From the IMG/VR virus record IMGVR_UViG_3300027777_000041, positions 1 through 57,911 of that record: a stretch of 57,911 bases of DNA. The stretch is one strand, 5' to 3'. Under the pieces are notes generated by a model. That model searched no databases, was not told the origin of the DNA, and worked only from the letters and a program-made list of their open reading frames with translations. Both the position numbers and the translations under genes were made by a program. This document shows positions 5,787 through 42,517 of the stretch, piece by piece. The stretch is from a virus. Positions within the stretch are counted from its first letter, which is position 1, and every line of letters starts with the position of its first letter.

Positions 5787-6123
5787 CTTTCCCCTCCAGT
5801 GCGTTGACGCCTAATTTACGGTTACGAGCTTCCTCAAAATCCGCCTCAGTCATCAGCGCATTGTTGGCGATGATGATCCGATTTAGGAGCAGCGAGTGCA
5901 TGTCAATCGCGTCTTGGGGCGTAAAATCGGGATACCGGTAAACCCCCTCGGGGTCCGCCAACGCGATTGGCCGCCCAAGTTCCCGCAGCGCCGCCTCCAG
6001 CCTTTCGATGCGGTCGGCGGCTTCGTGTCGCTCTGACCATAGCACAGTTCGCGCTTCGCGGTGGCGCTGTCGATCTCCGGGCAGCTCATCTGCGCGCAGT
6101 CGTTTCACAAGATCATCGCTCAT
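5779..6123 (-). CDS. Mosaic coiled-coil protein (MSDDLVKRLR family)
   Basis: 114 residues. It has all three blocks seen repeatedly in this operon: N-terminal MSDDLVKRLR, central ADRIERLEAALREL and C-terminal NALEGKDD. The unique middle part (FTPQDAIDMHSLLLNR) differs from its relatives. It starts in an ATGA overlap with the methyltransferase. Such proteins are common in alphaproteobacterial phages and have no assigned function. Confidence 0.65.
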   Translation of the reverse strand: MSDDLVKRLRADELPGDRQRHREARTVLWSERHEAADRIERLEAALRELGRPIALADPEGVYRYPDFTPQDAIDMHSLLLNRIIIANNALMTEADFEEARNRKLGVNALEGKDD

Positions 6124-7550
6124 TCTTTCCCCTCCAGTGTTTTGGCAACCTCTATGCGGGCCTTTGCAATTGCAAAGTATTCGCTGTTCATTTCAATTCC
6201 GATGAAATCAAAACCTTCTAACATCGCGGCTTTTCCAGTGCTACCACTTCCCATGAACGGGTCAAGCACTGTTCCGCCCGGCTGCGTCACAAGGCGGCAA
6301 AGATAGCGCATGAGGTCGGTGGGTTTGACCGTCGGGTGGTTGTTGGCCTCGCCACGATCTTTCTTGGCTGTCTTGGCGCAGTAGAAGAAGCGGGCGGCAG
6401 AGCCGGTGTCGCCGTAGCCTGTCTCTTGTTCGCCCGTTATATTGAGCCGCCCAGACATGGAATTTGTGTCATGCGCTTTGCGGCGGGTTCCGGGGTTCCC
6501 GCTTGTTGTCTCAGGAAACAAGTCCAACACCATCTGCGATCCGTCATGGATCAGGTTGGCGGGCCAGCGGCCAAGTGGCGATGATTTAACCGTTCCACGC
6601 GGAAGGCTTACAGTATCGCCGCTTTGCTGCTTTGATGTTGTCCATGCGCCATTTCCGCCAAGGCGAGGGTCATCTATATTTGGGTCAGTTTCAACCCTAC
6701 ACCCATCCACATTGATCGCCCCCGTCCCATGCGCCAGCACGTTCTCGGCCACCGTCCCGATCAGCGGCTTGCGGGCAACAGTGATAGGCTCCAAGGCGGG
6801 CTTGAGGGCGGTGCCCCATCCATCCCATTGCTGGGCGGCTTCGGTGGCGGGGGCTGTAAGATTTTCAACGCCATAACCAAAAATAGATTTGTTATTTTTA
6901 TTAGCGTCAGCCGCAGCCATTGTAACGCCAGATGTTTTTGCTTTTTCAACATCGCCACGAATTTTCTGCCCAATAACCTCCCGCTCCGCACCCGCCGCCT
7001 TATCAATCGCCTTACTCACATCTAGCGACTTCGGGAATCCAGACCCGTAAACCCATGCGATCATGTCGCGGATTTCAAAGCCAGCATCCTCAATTCCAGA
7101 ACACATGCGATGGTGTGTTCTCGTTCCGGCAAACGCCAGCAGATGGCCGCCCGGCTTCAAGACGCGGTAGCATTCAGAGGCCCATTCAGTCACCCACGTC
7201 TGAAAAACCCGCATCCGGTCTCCCCCACTGTGCTTTGGCTTTGGGCTGTCACATGTGCAGCGAGAGCCACCTTTACCAATCAACATTTTGCATTTTTCGC
7301 AACGATTCAAATTTGAGCCGGTGAATGACGGCCAAGATGTTTCGCGCTCACCAATTCCGGGTTCGCTGAACCCGCCACTTACCTGTTTCCAAGGCGCATC
7401 CCAATCCTTCCCCATAAACTCTAGGCCATAGGGCGGGTCGGTCACGATGGCGTCCACTGAGTTGTCAGGAAGCTCCCGCAGCCGCTCAAGGCAGTCACCC
7501 AACATCAAATTAATCTCGTTCATTTGCCGCCTCACAAGATCGTCAGTCAT
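6120..7550 (-). CDS. DNA methyltransferase (DPPY-type)
   Basis: 476 residues. The catalytic motif IV TDPPYGLEF is near residue 45. The SAM-binding motif LDPFMGSGSTGKAA comes near the C-terminus after HPTVKPTDLMRYL, the order of beta-class N6-adenine/N4-cytosine enzymes. A middle insert has a zinc-like CEKC...CTC pair. It probably modifies phage DNA against host restriction; the target site cannot be read from sequence. The start at 7550 (MTDDLVRRQ) overlaps the previous stop. An ATG at 7523 (MNEINLMLGDC) also has a GAGG site and matches where relatives begin, so the first nine codons look like a captured cassette block. The gene ends with the cassette terminus TLEGKE. Confidence 0.85.
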   Translation of the reverse strand: MTDDLVRRQMNEINLMLGDCLERLRELPDNSVDAIVTDPPYGLEFMGKDWDAPWKQVSGGFSEPGIGERETSWPSFTGSNLNRCEKCKMLIGKGGSRCTCDSPKPKHSGGDRMRVFQTWVTEWASECYRVLKPGGHLLAFAGTRTHHRMCSGIEDAGFEIRDMIAWVYGSGFPKSLDVSKAIDKAAGAEREVIGQKIRGDVEKAKTSGVTMAAADANKNNKSIFGYGVENLTAPATEAAQQWDGWGTALKPALEPITVARKPLIGTVAENVLAHGTGAINVDGCRVETDPNIDDPRLGGNGAWTTSKQQSGDTVSLPRGTVKSSPLGRWPANLIHDGSQMVLDLFPETTSGNPGTRRKAHDTNSMSGRLNITGEQETGYGDTGSAARFFYCAKTAKKDRGEANNHPTVKPTDLMRYLCRLVTQPGGTVLDPFMGSGSTGKAAMLEGFDFIGIEMNSEYFAIAKARIEVAKTLEGKE

Positions 7551-7740
7551 TTGTCGCCTCCAGTGCTTTGCGGGCAATGAGCTTCATGGTCTTCGACACG
7601 GCGCAGCAGTCCCAATCCGTGGACAGCTCTCGCAGCGCCGCCTCCAGCTTCTGGATACGGTCAGATTGTGACTGTAACTTGCTTGCCGCAGCATCGGATT
7701 CCCAGCTTCCGTTAGCGCGTAGCATTTCAACCAGCGTCAT
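7543..7740 (-). CDS. Mosaic coiled-coil protein
   Basis: 65 residues, starting MTLVEMLRANGSW. It carries the central block DRIQKLEAALREL and the C-terminal RKALEATND variant. Its ATG lies within the last codons of the upstream gene, with GGAGGGG as Shine-Dalgarno. Its own end supplies GGAGG for the methyltransferase. Confidence 0.6.
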   Translation of the reverse strand: MTLVEMLRANGSWESDAAASKLQSQSDRIQKLEAALRELSTDWDCCAVSKTMKLIARKALEATND

Positions 7741-8098
7741 CTTTCCCCTCCAGTGCTTTGCGGGCGTAATCTTCAATGCAGCACCCGCAGTCCTCATAAA
7801 ACCATTGGCCGTGTTCGCAGCGGTCATGCTTTGATGATTGCCCATCATCGCGGAACGGGATCTTGACTGTGCGGGGTATGTCTCCTTCGGCGATATTCCG
7901 CAGCGCCGCCTCCAGCTTCTCAATGCGGTTATTCAAGATGCCGTTTTCGACCAATAAATTGGCACAGCGATCTTCCAAATGCTCAATGCGGTCGGCGGCT
8001 GGCTTGGCGAGATACCAGCCACTATTACGCAAATCCTTCACAAGATCATCTGTCATTTTTCGCCTTCTTGAATGATAGTCAAATTCATCACATGCCAT
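7727..8098 (-). CDS. Mosaic coiled-coil protein
   Basis: 123 residues from the ATG at 8098, which has GGAGAAG upstream and overlaps the previous stop. An internal ATG at 8056 (MTDDLVKDLRNSG) matches the family start and also has a ribosome-binding site, so the first 14 residues are uncertain. It contains two coiled-coil blocks (ADRIEHLEDR, NRIEKLEAALRNI), a cysteine cluster (CEHG...CGCC) and the ARKALEGKDD end. Confidence 0.6.
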   Translation of the reverse strand: MACDEFDYHSRRRKMTDDLVKDLRNSGWYLAKPAADRIEHLEDRCANLLVENGILNNRIEKLEAALRNIAEGDIPRTVKIPFRDDGQSSKHDRCEHGQWFYEDCGCCIEDYARKALEGKDDAG

Positions 8099-8312
8099 TT
8101 TTCTTCTCCATCAGTTGTTCAAGCGCAGCTTCACGGCAACTATCGCAGCAAGCGTTGGCAGCAATCGACCGCAGCGCCGCCTCCAGCTTCTTGATGCGGT
8201 CGGCTTGTTGCCTAATCGTTCGTGTCACCATGCCTTCAGTTGGTGCAGGTTGAGTATGACTGAGTTTTTCAAGATCATCGGTCATCTGGCTTTTGGTGAT
8301 TGGCTTAGTCAT
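8088..8312 (-). CDS. Mosaic coiled-coil protein
   Basis: 74 residues. Overlaps the upstream stop by 8 bp. A variant N-terminal block (MTDDLEKL) starts at residue 10, followed by ADRIKKLEAALRSI and CCDSC, but there is no LEGKDD end. Function unknown. Confidence 0.55.
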   Translation of the reverse strand: MTKPITKSQMTDDLEKLSHTQPAPTEGMVTRTIRQQADRIKKLEAALRSIAANACCDSCREAALEQLMEKKNGM

Positions 8313-8538
8313 GATCCATCCACCTTCTAAATGCTCTACCGACTATCCAGCAAGATGCAACGCCAAGAACGACCCAATGGATAATCCCTGCTTGAAACCA
8401 TTCGTACACTAAGAAGCAACCGGCAAACGCCCCGAAAAGAAGGGCAAGCCCTTGTAGCGTATCAAGAAACCAATCAGGCGGCACAGGGAACATTGACTCT
8501 TGCATACGGCAGTTGTCATCTTTCTTTTCTTCAGTCAT
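8305..8538 (-). CDS. Small two-span membrane protein
   Basis: 77 residues from the ATG at 8538, which sits in the ATGACTGA overlap with the upstream cassette gene and uses that gene's GGAGGGG. Two adjacent hydrophobic segments (LALLFGAFAGCFLVYEWF and IIHWVVLGVASCWIVG) suggest a membrane hairpin. The basic C-terminus ends RRWMDHD. Function unknown. Confidence 0.6.
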   Translation of the reverse strand: MTEEKKDDNCRMQESMFPVPPDWFLDTLQGLALLFGAFAGCFLVYEWFQAGIIHWVVLGVASCWIVGRAFRRWMDHD

Positions 8539-8833
8539 CTTTCCCCTCCAGTGCGTTGCGGGCTGTGCGGCCACAGTTCGCGCCGCCATCGTAGTATTCG
8601 ACGCCGCAGCCATCGTCAGGTTTGCAGTCGCAAGCATAGAGACGTAGCGCCGCCTCCAGCTTCTCAACACGCTGCTCTGCGTAATCGCGATGCTTCATAG
8701 CCAAATCAGCTACGCCATTCGCATAATGGATTTGCTCTTCCAGCTTCTCAATACGGTCGGCGGATTCGGCGTGTGATTTAAGGCTTGGCGTATAAAAGGG
8801 GTCACGCAGCCGCTTCACAAGATCATCGCTCAT
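8531..8833 (-). CDS. Mosaic coiled-coil protein, first of the array
   Basis: 100 residues from MSDDLVKRLRD at 8833, with GGGAGA upstream. It has two coiled-coil blocks (ADRIEKLEEQI, QRVEKLEAALRLY), a cysteine-rich stretch and the NALEGKDD end. Its 3' end encodes the ribosome-binding site and start of the next gene. Confidence 0.65.
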   Translation of the reverse strand: MSDDLVKRLRDPFYTPSLKSHAESADRIEKLEEQIHYANGVADLAMKHRDYAEQRVEKLEAALRLYACDCKPDDGCGVEYYDGGANCGRTARNALEGKDD

Positions 8834-8834
8834 G

Positions 8835-9050
8835 TTAACTTTCTCCCGTTTTTTTAACACGTTCTGCGGATGTGTTTAGTTTATTGACAGGTGAGGGTCC
8901 GCAGTAGATCAAGTTTTTGTCGCATTCAGGGCAGCGCATCGCGATCATCTTCTCTGCCGCTTCAGCGATGGGCATTGGCAGTTTCAAGGCAAACCATTCA
9001 TGCTTGCATGAGCCGCAGTGGACTAGCAAAGAGTCGGGTGCGTCAGTCAT
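8835..9050 (-). CDS. Zinc-ribbon protein
   Basis: 71 residues. Two CxxC pairs (CGSC and CPEC, 29 residues apart) make a likely zinc ribbon; HCGSCKHEW resembles small phage zinc proteins. It starts in an overlap with the upstream gene. Possible nucleic-acid or protein adaptor. Confidence 0.6.
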   Translation of the reverse strand: MTDAPDSLLVHCGSCKHEWFALKLPMPIAEAAEKMIAMRCPECDKNLIYCGPSPVNKLNTSAERVKKTGES

Positions 9051-9376
9051 GCTTTGCCCCCATTGAGGATGTTGGCTGCATGAATTTCTCTGGTTTGCCG
9101 CATTGCTTCGTGTAACGCACGAGTCGATAAATCCATATGCTCGGCATATATTTCATCTGTTATTTCCCGATGGGTGATGATGTACCCCAGTTTTATTTCT
9201 TTCCATTCGTAAACCGGATGCGCCATGCTAGTTAAGCCAATACCATCCAATTCATGCAGATGCTGCGGCATCACTTTCATCGGCATGATGTTGGCAGCTT
9301 TGACAACCGCAGGCGCTGCTATCAGGCCAAACAGGCCGGTGAGGAACTTGCGTCTTGGCATTAAGAGATCAGTCAT
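9047..9376 (-). CDS. Protein with twin-arginine-like leader and capsid-protein-like C-terminus
   Basis: 109 residues from the ATG at 9376 (TGATG overlap, GGGGGAT upstream). Residues 7-30 look like an export leader: PRRKFL, then the hydrophobic TGLFGLIAAPAVV, ending VKA. The C-terminal half (EIKLGYIITHREI...) aligns with the major capsid protein of this phage (EIALGYAITRKAI...). By eye 21 of 46 positions are identical, including EI.LGY.IT, the D..Y pair and the QT.EI..AN.LN end. It lies in the early operon, far from the structural genes. Function unknown. Confidence 0.65.
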   Translation of the reverse strand: MTDLLMPRRKFLTGLFGLIAAPAVVKAANIMPMKVMPQHLHELDGIGLTSMAHPVYEWKEIKLGYIITHREITDEIYAEHMDLSTRALHEAMRQTREIHAANILNGGKA

Positions 9377-9567
9377 CACTTATCCCCCTGATGATAATCC
9401 GGGTCTGGGTTGTAGACATAATACGGCCAATAGTTGCCCATGATCTCTTTGCGGGCGATGTATTCCCACCAGATCGTAATGTCTTGGTTGGTTGCCTGAT
9501 TAGTGATGGTTTTGGGATACCAAGCGAACCAGCGATGCCATTCATGTTTTCCATCAGACCAGCGCAT
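9376..9567 (-). CDS. Tryptophan/tyrosine-rich small protein
   Basis: 63 residues (HEWHRWFAWYPKT...WWEYIARKEIMG, ending NPDPDYHQGDK). The aromatic content is very high. TAATG overlap with the previous gene and TGATG with the next. Not recognised. Confidence 0.6.
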   Translation of the reverse strand: MRWSDGKHEWHRWFAWYPKTITNQATNQDITIWWEYIARKEIMGNYWPYYVYNPDPDYHQGDK

Positions 9568-9944
9568 TATTCACCCCCCTTCCTTGGCGGCTCAGGCAAA
9601 GGCATCCAGTGGGTAGGCAAAGGCAACGCATGATTGCTCATATTAGCTTGCGTTTCTTCCTGAAAAAACCCAACACTATAACAAAGTTGCCAGCCTCCAA
9701 ATATGGAAGGATTGTGCATCGCTATTCCAACTTCTTGTATTTTCCTTATCAGGATTGGCCCATCCTTGGGTGCGGTGTCGATTGGTTGCCACAGGACGCT
9801 ATGGCAGCTAGTGCAAACCATCCGCCCATCTTCTGTCTTCAACTTGCTATGTTGCCCGCAATAGCAGTCTGCTGTCTGTTCCAAGCTCACGCTGATCTCC
9901 TGTCGTTGGATTTGGCTTTGCGAATGTTGCGGTGACGAATCCAT
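9567..9944 (-). CDS. DUF551-like protein with zinc knuckle
   Basis: 125 residues. Near residue 27 an N-terminal CYC...CTSC cluster precedes the DUF551-type signature WQPIDTAPKDGPILI, which closes with PTHWMPLPEPP. Two other proteins in this window carry the same signature. Function of the family unknown. Overlaps the helicase 3' end by 58 bp. Confidence 0.65.
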   Translation of the reverse strand: MDSSPQHSQSQIQRQEISVSLEQTADCYCGQHSKLKTEDGRMVCTSCHSVLWQPIDTAPKDGPILIRKIQEVGIAMHNPSIFGGWQLCYSVGFFQEETQANMSNHALPLPTHWMPLPEPPRKGGE

Positions 9945-11362
9945 GATTCCACTTCTGGAGTCATTTGTCTAGCGGGTTCGCCAGAAAAATGTCGCGGCGG
10001 CTTTGATTTGAATTTGTCTTGATATGCCCAATAAGCCCAACCCGGCTTATAGCCACGAAGAATTGAGTACAGGATCAATTGCGCGTACCAGCTTTGACCA
10101 TCAGCGGTTGTCTTCTGATCCGGCTTGGCAGAATGCCTACTAGCCAGTTCGTATAGCTCTCCGCTTTCTACCTGTACTTTGTCTTGTGGGGTTGGGCGGT
10201 GTCCGCAGGCGGGACAATCCAATACCTTTGGCGGCTTTAGGAAGTGGCACTTGGAACATTCCTTGGGTAGCTTCTCCTTTGGGGCACCTTCAACGCGCTT
10301 GGCCTTGCCATCATCAAGCTTGTCATGATGGATGTCAGTGACAAAGCCAAGGTTAAGCGTAGTGCTAGAGTGATCTAAAATGATGCAAGATTCTTTGCCT
10401 TCCGCAGTCCGCAGCCCGCGCCCGATCATTTGTGTGTACAAAATCTCCGATTTGGTAGGGCGGGCCAGAATGATACACCGAACGTCAGCATCAAAACCTG
10501 TGGTGAGTACGCCGACATTGCAGATTACCTTCACATCGCCCTTTGCAAACTTGTCTACGATCTCCCGCCGGGCTGGCAGATCAGTGTAAGCATCCATGTA
10601 TTCTGCTGGCACCTTGGCATCAAGGAACTGCTGTTGGATGTGTTTGGCATGTACCCGGTTAACAGCAAAACATATTGTTGGCTCATTTTTGCCACGTTCT
10701 AGCCATGTCGAAACAATGTCAGCGACCAGATGGCCCTTGTCCATTGCATGTCCCAAGCCTTTCAGGTCAAAGTCGCCAGCCACCATCCTGACGCCCTTCA
10801 AATTAGGATGCGCCGGGGCAAACACTTTGAAGGATGATAGAGCTTGCCTGTCAATCAACTCACCAGTGGTTATGCCGACAATCAGATGATCCCATTTGCC
10901 GGGAGCGCCCATGCCTCTAGCCCACGGGGTTGCTGTTAGCCCGATGAATGGCACATTCTCCCATTCAGAAAGCTGCATCCAGCGTTCGTACAAGCTGAAC
11001 CCCACATGGCACTCATCTACGATCACAAGATCCGCTTTAGGCAAATTGCGGCGCGTCAGTGTCTGCACCGAACACACCTGAACAGGTTGGCTTATGTCCG
11101 TCATTTCATGGGTGGCTTGGATCACGCCCAGATCAAAAATTCCGTTCTGCCGGAACCTTTCTACTGTCTGGTCAATTAGGCTAAGAGCAGGAACGACAAA
11201 CATTACCCGCTTGCCCTTCTGGCGGGCCATGTTGACCAACGCAGCGGCGATAACCGTCTTGCCGCTTCCTGTGGGGGCTTGAACAACCGGCCTACGGTAG
11301 CCACTAGCCAATGCTTCACGGATTTTGTCGATGATGTCCGCTTGATAGTCCCGGAGTTCCAT
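9887..11362 (-). CDS. SF2 DEAD/DEAH-family helicase
   Basis: 491 residues. Motif I is APTGSGKT near residue 30, motif II DECH near 116, motif III LTATP, and motif VI QMIGRGLR near 320. A CxxC...CxxC zinc ribbon (CSKCHFL...CPACG) follows near residue 375. It should unwind DNA at replication or recombination intermediates, with the operon's primase and RusA resolvase as likely partners. ATG at 11362 with AGGAAC upstream. Confidence 0.88.
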   Translation of the reverse strand: MELRDYQADIIDKIREALASGYRRPVVQAPTGSGKTVIAAALVNMARQKGKRVMFVVPALSLIDQTVERFRQNGIFDLGVIQATHEMTDISQPVQVCSVQTLTRRNLPKADLVIVDECHVGFSLYERWMQLSEWENVPFIGLTATPWARGMGAPGKWDHLIVGITTGELIDRQALSSFKVFAPAHPNLKGVRMVAGDFDLKGLGHAMDKGHLVADIVSTWLERGKNEPTICFAVNRVHAKHIQQQFLDAKVPAEYMDAYTDLPARREIVDKFAKGDVKVICNVGVLTTGFDADVRCIILARPTKSEILYTQMIGRGLRTAEGKESCIILDHSSTTLNLGFVTDIHHDKLDDGKAKRVEGAPKEKLPKECSKCHFLKPPKVLDCPACGHRPTPQDKVQVESGELYELASRHSAKPDQKTTADGQSWYAQLILYSILRGYKPGWAYWAYQDKFKSKPPRHFSGEPARQMTPEVESWIRHRNIRKAKSNDRRSA

Positions 11363-35215: not shown

Positions 35216-36658
35216 TCAGATAACCGTCCACGTACTTCCAGATGGAACCGTAACAGTGACGCCTGAATTTATCGTAACTGGTCCAAATGTACCAGCATTA
35301 TAGCTAGTTGTTATTGTATAATCGGCACTGATGGTTTGTTGATTTTCATAGAAAATACGGTCAGGAGACCCACCAGTGGGGTAAATGGATCCAGTCGGCC
35401 CAGTGGGGCCTGTGCCACTTGGACCAGTAGGCCCAGTCGGACCAGCAACACTGGACGCCGCTCCAGTCGGGCCAGTAGGGCCAGTGGGGCCGGTTGCCCC
35501 GACATTGCCAGCGGCCGAAATATTCCATGAAGTGTATGTACCTGAGCCGCCCGTAGCATCCGAAGTGATGGTAAGGGAAGTCCCGCTAAATGCAGTGATA
35601 ATGCCTTCAACGTAATTGGTTGGGGTTACTGTGTAGGCAATGCGAACACGTTGGCCCACCGCAAAAGCCGTTGCGGTGCTTGCTAGGTTAGTTGTAAACG
35701 TCAACGAACCTACACTGACCAGTGTTGATGTGCTGCTAGTTAACCCCGCATAACCAATTCCGGTGGGTCCTGTCGGCCCCGTAGCGCCCGCCGTACCAGC
35801 TGTTCCCGTAGGCCCAGTCGGCCCCGCGCTTCCTGCTGAACCCGCTGTCCCCGTAGGGCCTGTCGGGCCTGCAACCGTGGATGCTGCGCCCGTAGGGCCA
35901 GTTGGACCGGTAGGGCCAGCTACAGTGGAGGCAGCCCCGGTCGGACCAGTTGGGCCAGCTACAGTGGACGCTGCGCCAGTTGGGCCGGTAGGGCCGGTAG
36001 CACCCTGCGTTCCCGCTGAACCTGTAGGACCTGTAGGACCGGCCACGGTGGAATCTGCACCAGTGGGGCCTGTAGGGCCGGTCGCGCCTTGCACTCCCGT
36101 AGGACCGGTTGGCCCCGACACGCCCGTAGGACCGATGGTCCCCTGCGGGCCGGTAGCGCCAGTAGCGCCGGTAGGCCCAGCAATGCCTTGCAAACCCTGC
36201 TGACCAGTGGGGCCAGTCGGTCCGGGGATAGTTGATGTTGGGCCAGTAGACCCGGTAGGCCCCGTAGACCCCAATGGGCCTTGCGGCCCAGTAGGTCCAG
36301 TAGGACCAGCAACTGTTGAATTTGGGCCGGTCGGGCCAGTGCTTCCAGTGGGTCCAGTAGGCCCTGCAACCGTTGAATCTCCACCGGTTGGGCCGGTCGG
36401 GCCGGTAGCGCCCGTAGAGCCTGTAGGTCCAGCTATTGTGGATGCAGCACCCGTAGGCCCTGTGCTTCCAGTAGGCCCTGTGTTTCCTGCGGGGCCTGTT
36501 GGGCCAAACCCACCAGAAGGACCAGTCGGACCCGGTACTAACCCTGCAATTGCGCCTGTTGTGGTGCGTTTTGAAGTTCCGGCTTGCACAACTTCCAGCT
36601 GTTCCGCCCCGCTAAGGGAGGTTGCCGCTGGAAGGTTTGGAATTTGTGCATTTGCCAC
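35216..36658 (-). CDS. Collagen-like tail fibre
   Basis: 480 residues. An N-terminal [20 protein letters not shown] block, shared with the next gene upstream, is followed by about 250 residues of Gly-X-Y repeats dominated by GPTGPTG, with interruptions. A beta insert ([20 protein letters not shown]) comes next, then more repeats, and the tip [13 protein letters not shown]. The protein should form a triple-helical shaft with a C-terminal tip. Confidence 0.85.
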
Positions 36659-41602: not shown

Positions 41603-42517
41603 TTAAGAGGTGGGGAAGGAGCCGAAGATGGAACGCCAGTTATAGTAACCGAAGCTGTAACGCTCGTAACCCTTGACAAGAAGATTGTCAGTGACAAAAT
41701 CGACTTGCATATCGGATTCAAACTTCACGCGCTCCATGTACGACAGGCCGTCGATGTTGGTCAGCAAGAACCAAGCATAGGCAGAGGTCAAGAAGTCGTT
41801 GACCATGTAGCCTTCGGGAAGGCCACCAGCCGTCATCATAATGGCATTGACGTCATTGTCCGCAGTACCCGGACGGAGTTCCGTCTTGGTGAGTCGGATA
41901 GCAACCGGCTCAAGCTGCGGGGGAACAATGAGCTTGCGGCCACGGGCGAACACCTTCAGGCCAGCCTGATCCTTGAAGTTCGTGCGGATCGCAATCATCG
42001 CGTTCAGCAGGGTAGCTTCGTTCAGATCAACCTGAGTGGAGGGCGTATTGGCAACCGTACCACCGTCAATTGGATGCGAAGCGGAGCAAAGAGCCACACC
42101 GTCACCACCGATAGAAGCGTTATAGGTCGTCGCCGTGTTCAGCAAGTTAGCGCCATAGATTTCCTTCGTTTGCTGGAAGGACTCAATGAGGCCAAGGTTC
42201 GACGGAGCAAACTGGGTCTTGTACAGGTTGTCGTCAATCGCCTTGCGGGTAATCGCATACCCAAGGGCAATTTCCGTGTGCTCCTGATTGTAGACGTAGC
42301 GTTCGCCAGCGCCGTTATCAAAGGCAGTCTGACCGCCTTCAGTCTTAAGCTGGGCCAAGCCAAGGAAACGCATCTCAGCGGTGCGCTCCAGAGCCATCTT
42401 TGACTCATGCTTGGTGAAGATCTTGTCGTACTGCGACGGGATCTGCTCATACTTACCTTCAACGCCCCGGAGACCGGGAAGGAGAAGGTCTTTGATAGCC
42501 GAAAGATTAACAGCCAT
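41603..42517 (-). CDS. Major capsid protein (HK97-like)
   Basis: 304 residues. ALGYAITRKAIDDNLYKTQF, QTKEIYGANLLN and VFARGRKLIVPPQLE are in the order expected for this class of HK97-fold head proteins. Its position follows scaffold and decoration genes. Its central segment is also found in the early protein at 9047-9376. Confidence 0.85.
   Translation of the reverse strand: MAVNLSAIKDLLLPGLRGVEGKYEQIPSQYDKIFTKHESKMALERTAEMRFLGLAQLKTEGGQTAFDNGAGERYVYNQEHTEIALGYAITRKAIDDNLYKTQFAPSNLGLIESFQQTKEIYGANLLNTATTYNASIGGDGVALCSASHPIDGGTVANTPSTQVDLNEATLLNAMIAIRTNFKDQAGLKVFARGRKLIVPPQLEPVAIRLTKTELRPGTADNDVNAIMMTAGGLPEGYMVNDFLTSAYAWFLLTNIDGLSYMERVKFESDMQVDFVTDNLLVKGYERYSFGYYNWRSIFGSFPTS

Follow-up and report, generated by a model that had tools for sequence, protein, structure and literature searches.

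Why would a phage place a piece of capsid protein behind an export signal in a small early gene? This question is raised by a protein of 109 amino acids (aa) encoded in the IMG/VR virus record IMGVR_UViG_3300027777_000041, which was analysed over its full length of 57,911 nucleotides and is referred to as the window. The C-terminal part of this protein resembles the major capsid protein (MCP) of the same record, and its N-terminus has the features of a signal for twin-arginine translocation (Tat). Table 1 lists the coordinates. On the evidence described here, it is very probable that the protein represents a family in which a Tat-type leader is fused to fragments of capsid origin.

Pairwise alignment of the window protein with the MCP (BLASTP, single pair) matched aa 57–105 to MCP aa 79–127 with 22 of 49 residues identical and no gap (46.2 bits, E = 1e-11). 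The initial annotation, which had counted about 21 identities over the C-terminal 46 residues, in the same order and gap-free, was thus accurate and slightly short. Smith–Waterman comparison of the two proteins gave z = 18, and none of 2000 shuffled sequences scored as high. Profile–profile comparison of both proteins (hhalign, three small proteins against 11 MCPs) returned a probability of 98.1% with E = 1.4e-13. In the whole record, the window protein matched only itself and the MCP. The likeness extends beyond this pair to the MCPs of other phages. Foldseek and PHROG 371 identify the capsid protein as HK97-like. Its AlphaFold model (11 sequences) reached a pLDDT (model confidence) of 44 and the Foldseek TM-scores are low (0.3–0.4); the structure therefore serves to support the fold class and nothing further. 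The matching segment retains 12 of 15 family-conserved MCP positions as compared to 10 of 34 other positions (Fisher p = 0.0016).

A second match, absent from the initial annotation, connects aa 44–55 of the window protein with MCP aa 139–150; in relatives, this piece reaches E of about 5e-6 against the MCP profile. As the piece resembling MCP aa 139–150 precedes the one resembling aa 79–127, the segment order is permuted. These two stretches are the only parts of the 304 MCP residues that are represented, and the window protein, judged by its sequence, is not itself a capsid protein: it is without a complete HK97 fold with A and P domains. An AlphaFold model of the small protein (six sequences; pLDDT 53, two helices) was unusable. 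The alignments support an origin of the C-terminus from the type of MCP that the phage itself encodes, or else a recent common ancestor of the two.

The leader of the window protein (MPRRKFLTGLFGLIAAPAVVKAA) contains an RRxFL motif (RRKFL at aa 8–12), 15 uncharged residues and an A-x-A-like end preceded by a lysine. Relatives were retrieved from the viral contigs of IMG/VR with a degenerate DNA pattern for the end of the leader, APA[VI]V..A..xMP, which makes no demand on the arginines. At least 120 stretches were found, comprising 116 distinct proteins; family counts rest on the matches listed. RRx[FL][LIMFV] is present in 114 of the 116. At junction positions that the pattern leaves free, V or I occurs in 110/116 and K or R in 103/116. 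As the search left the arginines and these junction positions free, their conservation demonstrates that leader signal and xx[LI]MP[VI][KR] junction are conserved at the protein level, and the near-absolute twin arginines in relatives not selected for them identify the leader as a genuine Tat-type signal. Export of the window protein is predicted from this signal, and the initial reading of RRKFL, a hydrophobic stretch and an AxA-like end as twin-arginine-like is borne out. Against TIGR01409, one relative (L138) scores 17.3 at a curated cut-off of 16.7, and the window protein is absent from the match list.

Among close relatives in IMG/VR, the leader is kept and the remainder is exchanged. Type B relatives, like the window protein, carry MCP aa 76–127 in their C-terminus. 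In type A relatives, a piece similar to the N-terminal arm of the MCP (aa 2–36) stands behind a DGxxLxSxxHPV piece that is common to both types, and one contig (L005/L111, also L006) encodes types A and B in tandem. For a systematic test, 101 contigs (3.04 Mb) with 107 leader proteins were assembled; all leader open reading frames (ORFs) are intact. Searching the ORFs of the respective contig, 21/107 C-termini found a match at E ≤ 1e-3, compared to none of the reversed sequences and 47/1500 control small genes; some MCPs were recognised through such a match, which favours these own-contig counts and affects neither the controls nor the concordance test described below. MCPs make up nearly all of the targets. 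Of six representatives, five belong to PHROG 283, 212, 9953 or 1357 ("major head protein") and the sixth has a weak match to 9953 (E = 4.8e-6); an additional target, in G047, is a head–tail adaptor. When 39 MCPs of five families served as targets, 46/106 C-termini matched at E ≤ 0.01 (Fisher p = 7e-58), compared to 6/1984 ordinary small phage genes (0.3%), 0/106 reversed and 0/530 shuffled C-termini. Family profiles gave 40/106 versus 3/1984 control genes. To allow for dependence among the proteins, they were grouped by single linkage, resulting in 59 C-terminal clusters; 13 of these match an MCP, representing 13 different MCP stretches and five MCP families. A chance similarity or convergent low-complexity resemblance might be suspected because only 49 residues are involved and the first report was a by-eye reading. 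It is refuted by the E-value of the pair, the 2000 shuffles, the profile matches and the shuffled and reversed C-termini, and we regard it as exceedingly improbable.

The capsid family from which a fragment stems follows its carrier. With the carrier's own MCP left out, the best MCP match fell into the carrier's own MCP family in 23/23 cases (permuted mean 6.5, p = 5e-5). Thus, the fragments correspond to the capsid type of their carrier, and a role as weapons against unrelated phages was rejected. In several genomes, different parts of a single MCP are distributed over two or three leader genes: in G057, these genes carry MCP aa 5–68, aa 376–413 plus 103–130, and a third piece, and in G060 they carry aa 55–101 and 292–342. 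Recent, near-identical captures of an MCP were not seen; the maximum identity to an own MCP was 77%, over 13 residues only.

Permutation is the rule among composite C-termini. Two profile domains (p ≤ 0.005) in one C-terminus were detected in 12 protein/profile combinations from nine proteins and never in shuffles, and in all 12 the first piece corresponds to a later part of the MCP than the second. Smith–Waterman alignment found the permuted order in the window protein and two others. Among relatives, the DGxxLxSxxHPV first segment is joined to different second segments, for which serial replacement of the 3′ end is a simple account; the C-termini may have been renewed in this manner. The median C-terminal dN/dS (ratio of nonsynonymous to synonymous substitution rates, Nei–Gojobori) is 0.27 over 82 non-independent pairs, with 0.14 for the leaders, and the C-termini of the window protein and its 89% identical relative gave 0.23. 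Such low values indicate that the C-termini are maintained as protein sequence under purifying selection. With regard to the initial interpretation, the capsid-derived C-terminus and the Tat-type leader stand; the notion of a single odd capsid fragment has to give way to a large, modular mosaic family with interchangeable C-termini, which the initial annotation did not mention. The functions that it suggested, namely poisoning or templating of assembly or a block to superinfecting phages, are hypothetical.

The combination sets these proteins apart from known systems. They share with Tat substrates (TIGR01409) the [SPNT]RRx[FL][LI] motif, the uncharged hydrophobic stretch, the A-x-A-like end and a basic residue in the c-region. 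Cellular substrates carry folded, often cofactor-bearing enzymes, whereas here the mature part is a 50–100 aa mosaic of capsid segments behind a conserved LMP[VI][KR] junction. The C-terminal segments are homologous to HK97-fold MCPs (PHROGs 371, 283, 212, 9953, 1357), but comprise 13–90 residues and no complete domain, occur in permuted order and are fused to an export signal. In the open-access literature, neither a phage Tat protein with capsid fragments nor superinfection exclusion by capsid fragments was found, so that this large family of Tat-tagged capsid-fragment genes is apparently undescribed. To our knowledge, no decoy, inhibitor or accessory gene resembles an export signal attached to a cut-up capsid protein.

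What purpose could such a protein serve? The arrangement recurs with unrelated capsid families, always the carrier's own, and this suggests that mimicry of the capsid is selected for at the inner membrane or beyond it. The members of the family are modular: Tat signal and xx[LI]MP[VI][KR] junction stay constant, while the C-terminus is exchanged and consists of segments of the carrier's type of MCP (less often of other virion or replication proteins). We tentatively consider that they work as capsid mimics. The most likely use of such Tat-targeted mimics is that of a bait for a binder of newly made MCP, either a sensor of the host or the capsid of a related phage in the same cell. The protein would be made early, ahead of the capsid protein, and the early position of the gene fits an action before late MCP. 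The fragment would then capture the partner that recognises freshly synthesised capsid protein; this partner is most likely a defence protein of the host that senses capsids, as CapRel or Thoeris do. Through the Tat signal, the complex would be brought to the membrane or leave the cytoplasm, ending the action of the partner. MCP is reported to trigger CapRel (CapRel-SJ46, PMC9712102) and Thoeris of Staphylococcus (PMC11312562) directly. Accordingly, newly made MCP is a ligand worth mimicking; these systems are host sensors though, and the abstracts of both reports describe no phage decoy of capsid fragments. Tat is able to export partners that lack a signal of their own (PMC10924467). A dedicated cassette in many uncultured phages, in which shuffled pieces of the own capsid act as Tat-targeted baits, are renewed by serial 3′-end replacement and clear the cytoplasm of capsid-sensing defence proteins or of subunits of rival capsids, is conceivable, with more doubt than confidence on our side, and the specific mechanism of a bait for a host sensor is a rather doubtful possibility.

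Several observations weigh against the bait. For 46/59 clusters of C-termini (about 78%), no source was detected. The identity of fragments to the carrier's own MCP is 38–72% and often no higher than to the MCP of a relative; these moderate values, with the own MCP often not the closest in its family, suggest old fragments or fragments from relatives rather than fresh copies. A few C-termini resemble proteins other than MCP, which a capsid-only bait leaves unexplained: three proteins combine the leader with a tail collar fragment (Pfam Collar, E = 1e-13; L103:9635–10105 (+), L139:2189–2530 (+), L141:726–1067 (+)), in L171:4794–5360 (−) the leader is followed by a ribonucleotide reductase-like and then a DnaB helicase-like piece, and DNA polymerase A is a possible further source. 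Comparison of neighbourhoods revealed neither a sensor nor a partner gene, and none of the neighbours of the leader genes was conserved; PADLOC models gave no match to the window protein at E 0.1 and no defence-related match. Export of the window protein, on which the proposal depends, is a prediction only.

The main rival to the bait is a dominant-negative inhibitor of assembly: the fragment would insert into or cap capsid subunits of the same family from co-infecting relatives, and the Tat signal would tether these to the membrane or keep the fragment away from the carrier's late assembly. The segments lie in regions relevant for assembly (N-terminal arm, strand plus long helix, C-terminus), the matched MCP family is that of the carrier and hence of its close competitors, and several different segments can occur per genome; even the divergence from the carrier's MCP could be a form of self-escape. 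Prophage-encoded blockers of virion assembly are known, such as Tab (PMC10884400), a small phage-encoded protein that prevents other phages from assembling virions. Tab acts on tails, and neither derivation from its target nor Tat targeting is described for it. Conversely, the fragments are frequently as close to the own MCP as to any other, which creates a problem of self-poisoning, the non-structural fragments do not fit, and nothing shows expression in superinfection or in lysogens. Such an inhibitor is, in our view, rather unlikely.

The two remaining explanations deny the C-terminus a capsid-related role. If the leader were the active part, jamming or occupying the Tat translocase or perturbing the membrane, the C-terminus would be an exchangeable passenger filled by recombination. 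This would explain why no C-terminus comes near the leader and the LMP[VI][KR] junction in conservation and why the C-termini are extremely diverse, non-capsid sources included; we consider it unlikely nonetheless, given the purifying selection on the C-termini, the strong over-representation of MCP as a source and the conserved MCP positions that the window fragment retains. Alternatively, the fusions may be a by-product of recombination without capsid-related function, in which the 3′ end of the leader gene is repeatedly replaced by gene fragments and MCP is an abundant and conserved source. Mosaic and permuted C-termini, with one first segment in front of different second segments, are expected from serial replacement. 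The same selection argues against this, as do the intact ORFs, the lack of recent near-identical copies and the low rate among control small genes of the same phages, which leaves a by-product improbable. Selection on the C-termini and the bias towards MCP make both a leader-only function and a selectively neutral by-product less likely.

Concerning distribution, two leader-bearing queries found no leader relative among cultured phages (50,697 records), where short leaders may have been masked by the low-complexity filter, and a search of these with the window protein matched MCPs only. Phage RW, whose host is Caulobacter crescentus CB15, has a related MCP. In bacterial genomes, ten pattern matches were obtained. 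In the cases examined in Bradyrhizobium and Marinimicrobia, the leader gene stands alone, no MCP lies near it, and it is probably a relic. One of them, L393:12378–12782 (−) of Bradyrhizobium erythrophlei GAS478, is located on the chromosome near putative transposase genes, with no MCP in the 73 kb read, and is probably a relic of a former prophage. A separate subfamily of leader proteins (L119, L131, L142, L156, L183, L202, L205, L221) has a long conserved C-terminus (...FYGRLGLATNRMSMSGLQTAAIESRADEKA...) for which no source was detected; its phages have the MCP type of the window wherever an MCP was seen.

The window gene itself is intact. It starts with ATG at 9376, with an in-frame GTG at 9379, and ends with a stop codon at 9047–9049 on the minus strand, within an early block between a helicase gene (9887–11362) and a methyltransferase gene (6120–7577). 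Based on the Shine–Dalgarno-like AGGGGG and the overlaps with both neighbours, it is probably read in one operon with small early genes, and the TGATG overlap suggests translational coupling with the 63-aa gene. Promoter and terminator scans performed no better than shuffles. No PHROG, Pfam, NCBIfam or PADLOC family covers the 109-aa protein; a weak match to Pfam HU-DNA_bdg (E = 0.06, below cut-off) was rejected as chance. Adjoining the leader gene, a run of small early ORFs at 7543–8860 (−) has a common motif like MTDDLVKRLRD...ADRIEKLEAALR with variable remainders and forms a second modular small-gene series. Among the structural genes, 35216–36658 (−) encodes a collagen-like protein of 480 aa with many GPTGPT repeats.

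Table 1 Features of the leader gene, its neighbours and the MCP gene in the window
Feature	Position	Strand	Basis
Tat-leader/capsid-fragment coding sequence, 109 aa	9047..9376	-	ORF list and sequence; IMG/VR relatives 100% and 89% identical
Twin-arginine signal, aa 1–28 (MTDLLMPRRKFLTGLFGLIAAPAVVKAA)	9293..9376	-	RRx[FL][LIMFV] in 114/116 listed relatives
Conserved junction, aa 29–35 (NIMPMKV), consensus xx[LI]MP[VI][KR]	9272..9292	-	Conservation in relatives
Capsid segment 1, aa 44–55 (DGIGLTSMAHPV), like MCP aa 139–150	9212..9247	-	Smith–Waterman on remainder, p ≤ 0.003
Capsid segment 2, aa 57–105, like MCP aa 79–127	9062..9208	-	BLASTP E 1e-11; hhalign 98.1%
Shine–Dalgarno-like AGGGGG, 5′ of the ATG of the leader gene	9384..9389	-	Sequence
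Upstream small gene, 63 aa; stop overlaps leader-gene start as TGATG (one base)	9376..9567	-	Sequence
Downstream small gene, 71 aa, CxxC...CxxC; ATGA overlap (four bases) with leader gene	8835..9050	-	Sequence
MCP, 304 aa, HK97-like	41603..42517	-	PHROG 371 "major head protein" E 5.7e-11; Foldseek top matches HK97
MCP aa 79–127, strand plus long helix region, counterpart of segment 2	42137..42283	-	BLASTP, hhalign; secondary structure of low-confidence model
MCP aa 139–150, DG...HP region invariant in MCP alignment, counterpart of segment 1	42068..42103	-	Smith–Waterman
MCP aa 2–36 (N-terminal arm), mirrored in type A relatives, not in the window protein	42410..42514	-	Sequence comparison

If the small protein of the window and its relatives do act as capsid baits, recognition of the capsid by host sensors or rivals would be a pressure strong enough for phages to maintain dedicated countermeasures. 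The family would then be a ready source of natural peptides that bind capsids or capsid sensors, and its sequence signature may serve in seeking capsid-sensing defences in uncultured hosts.
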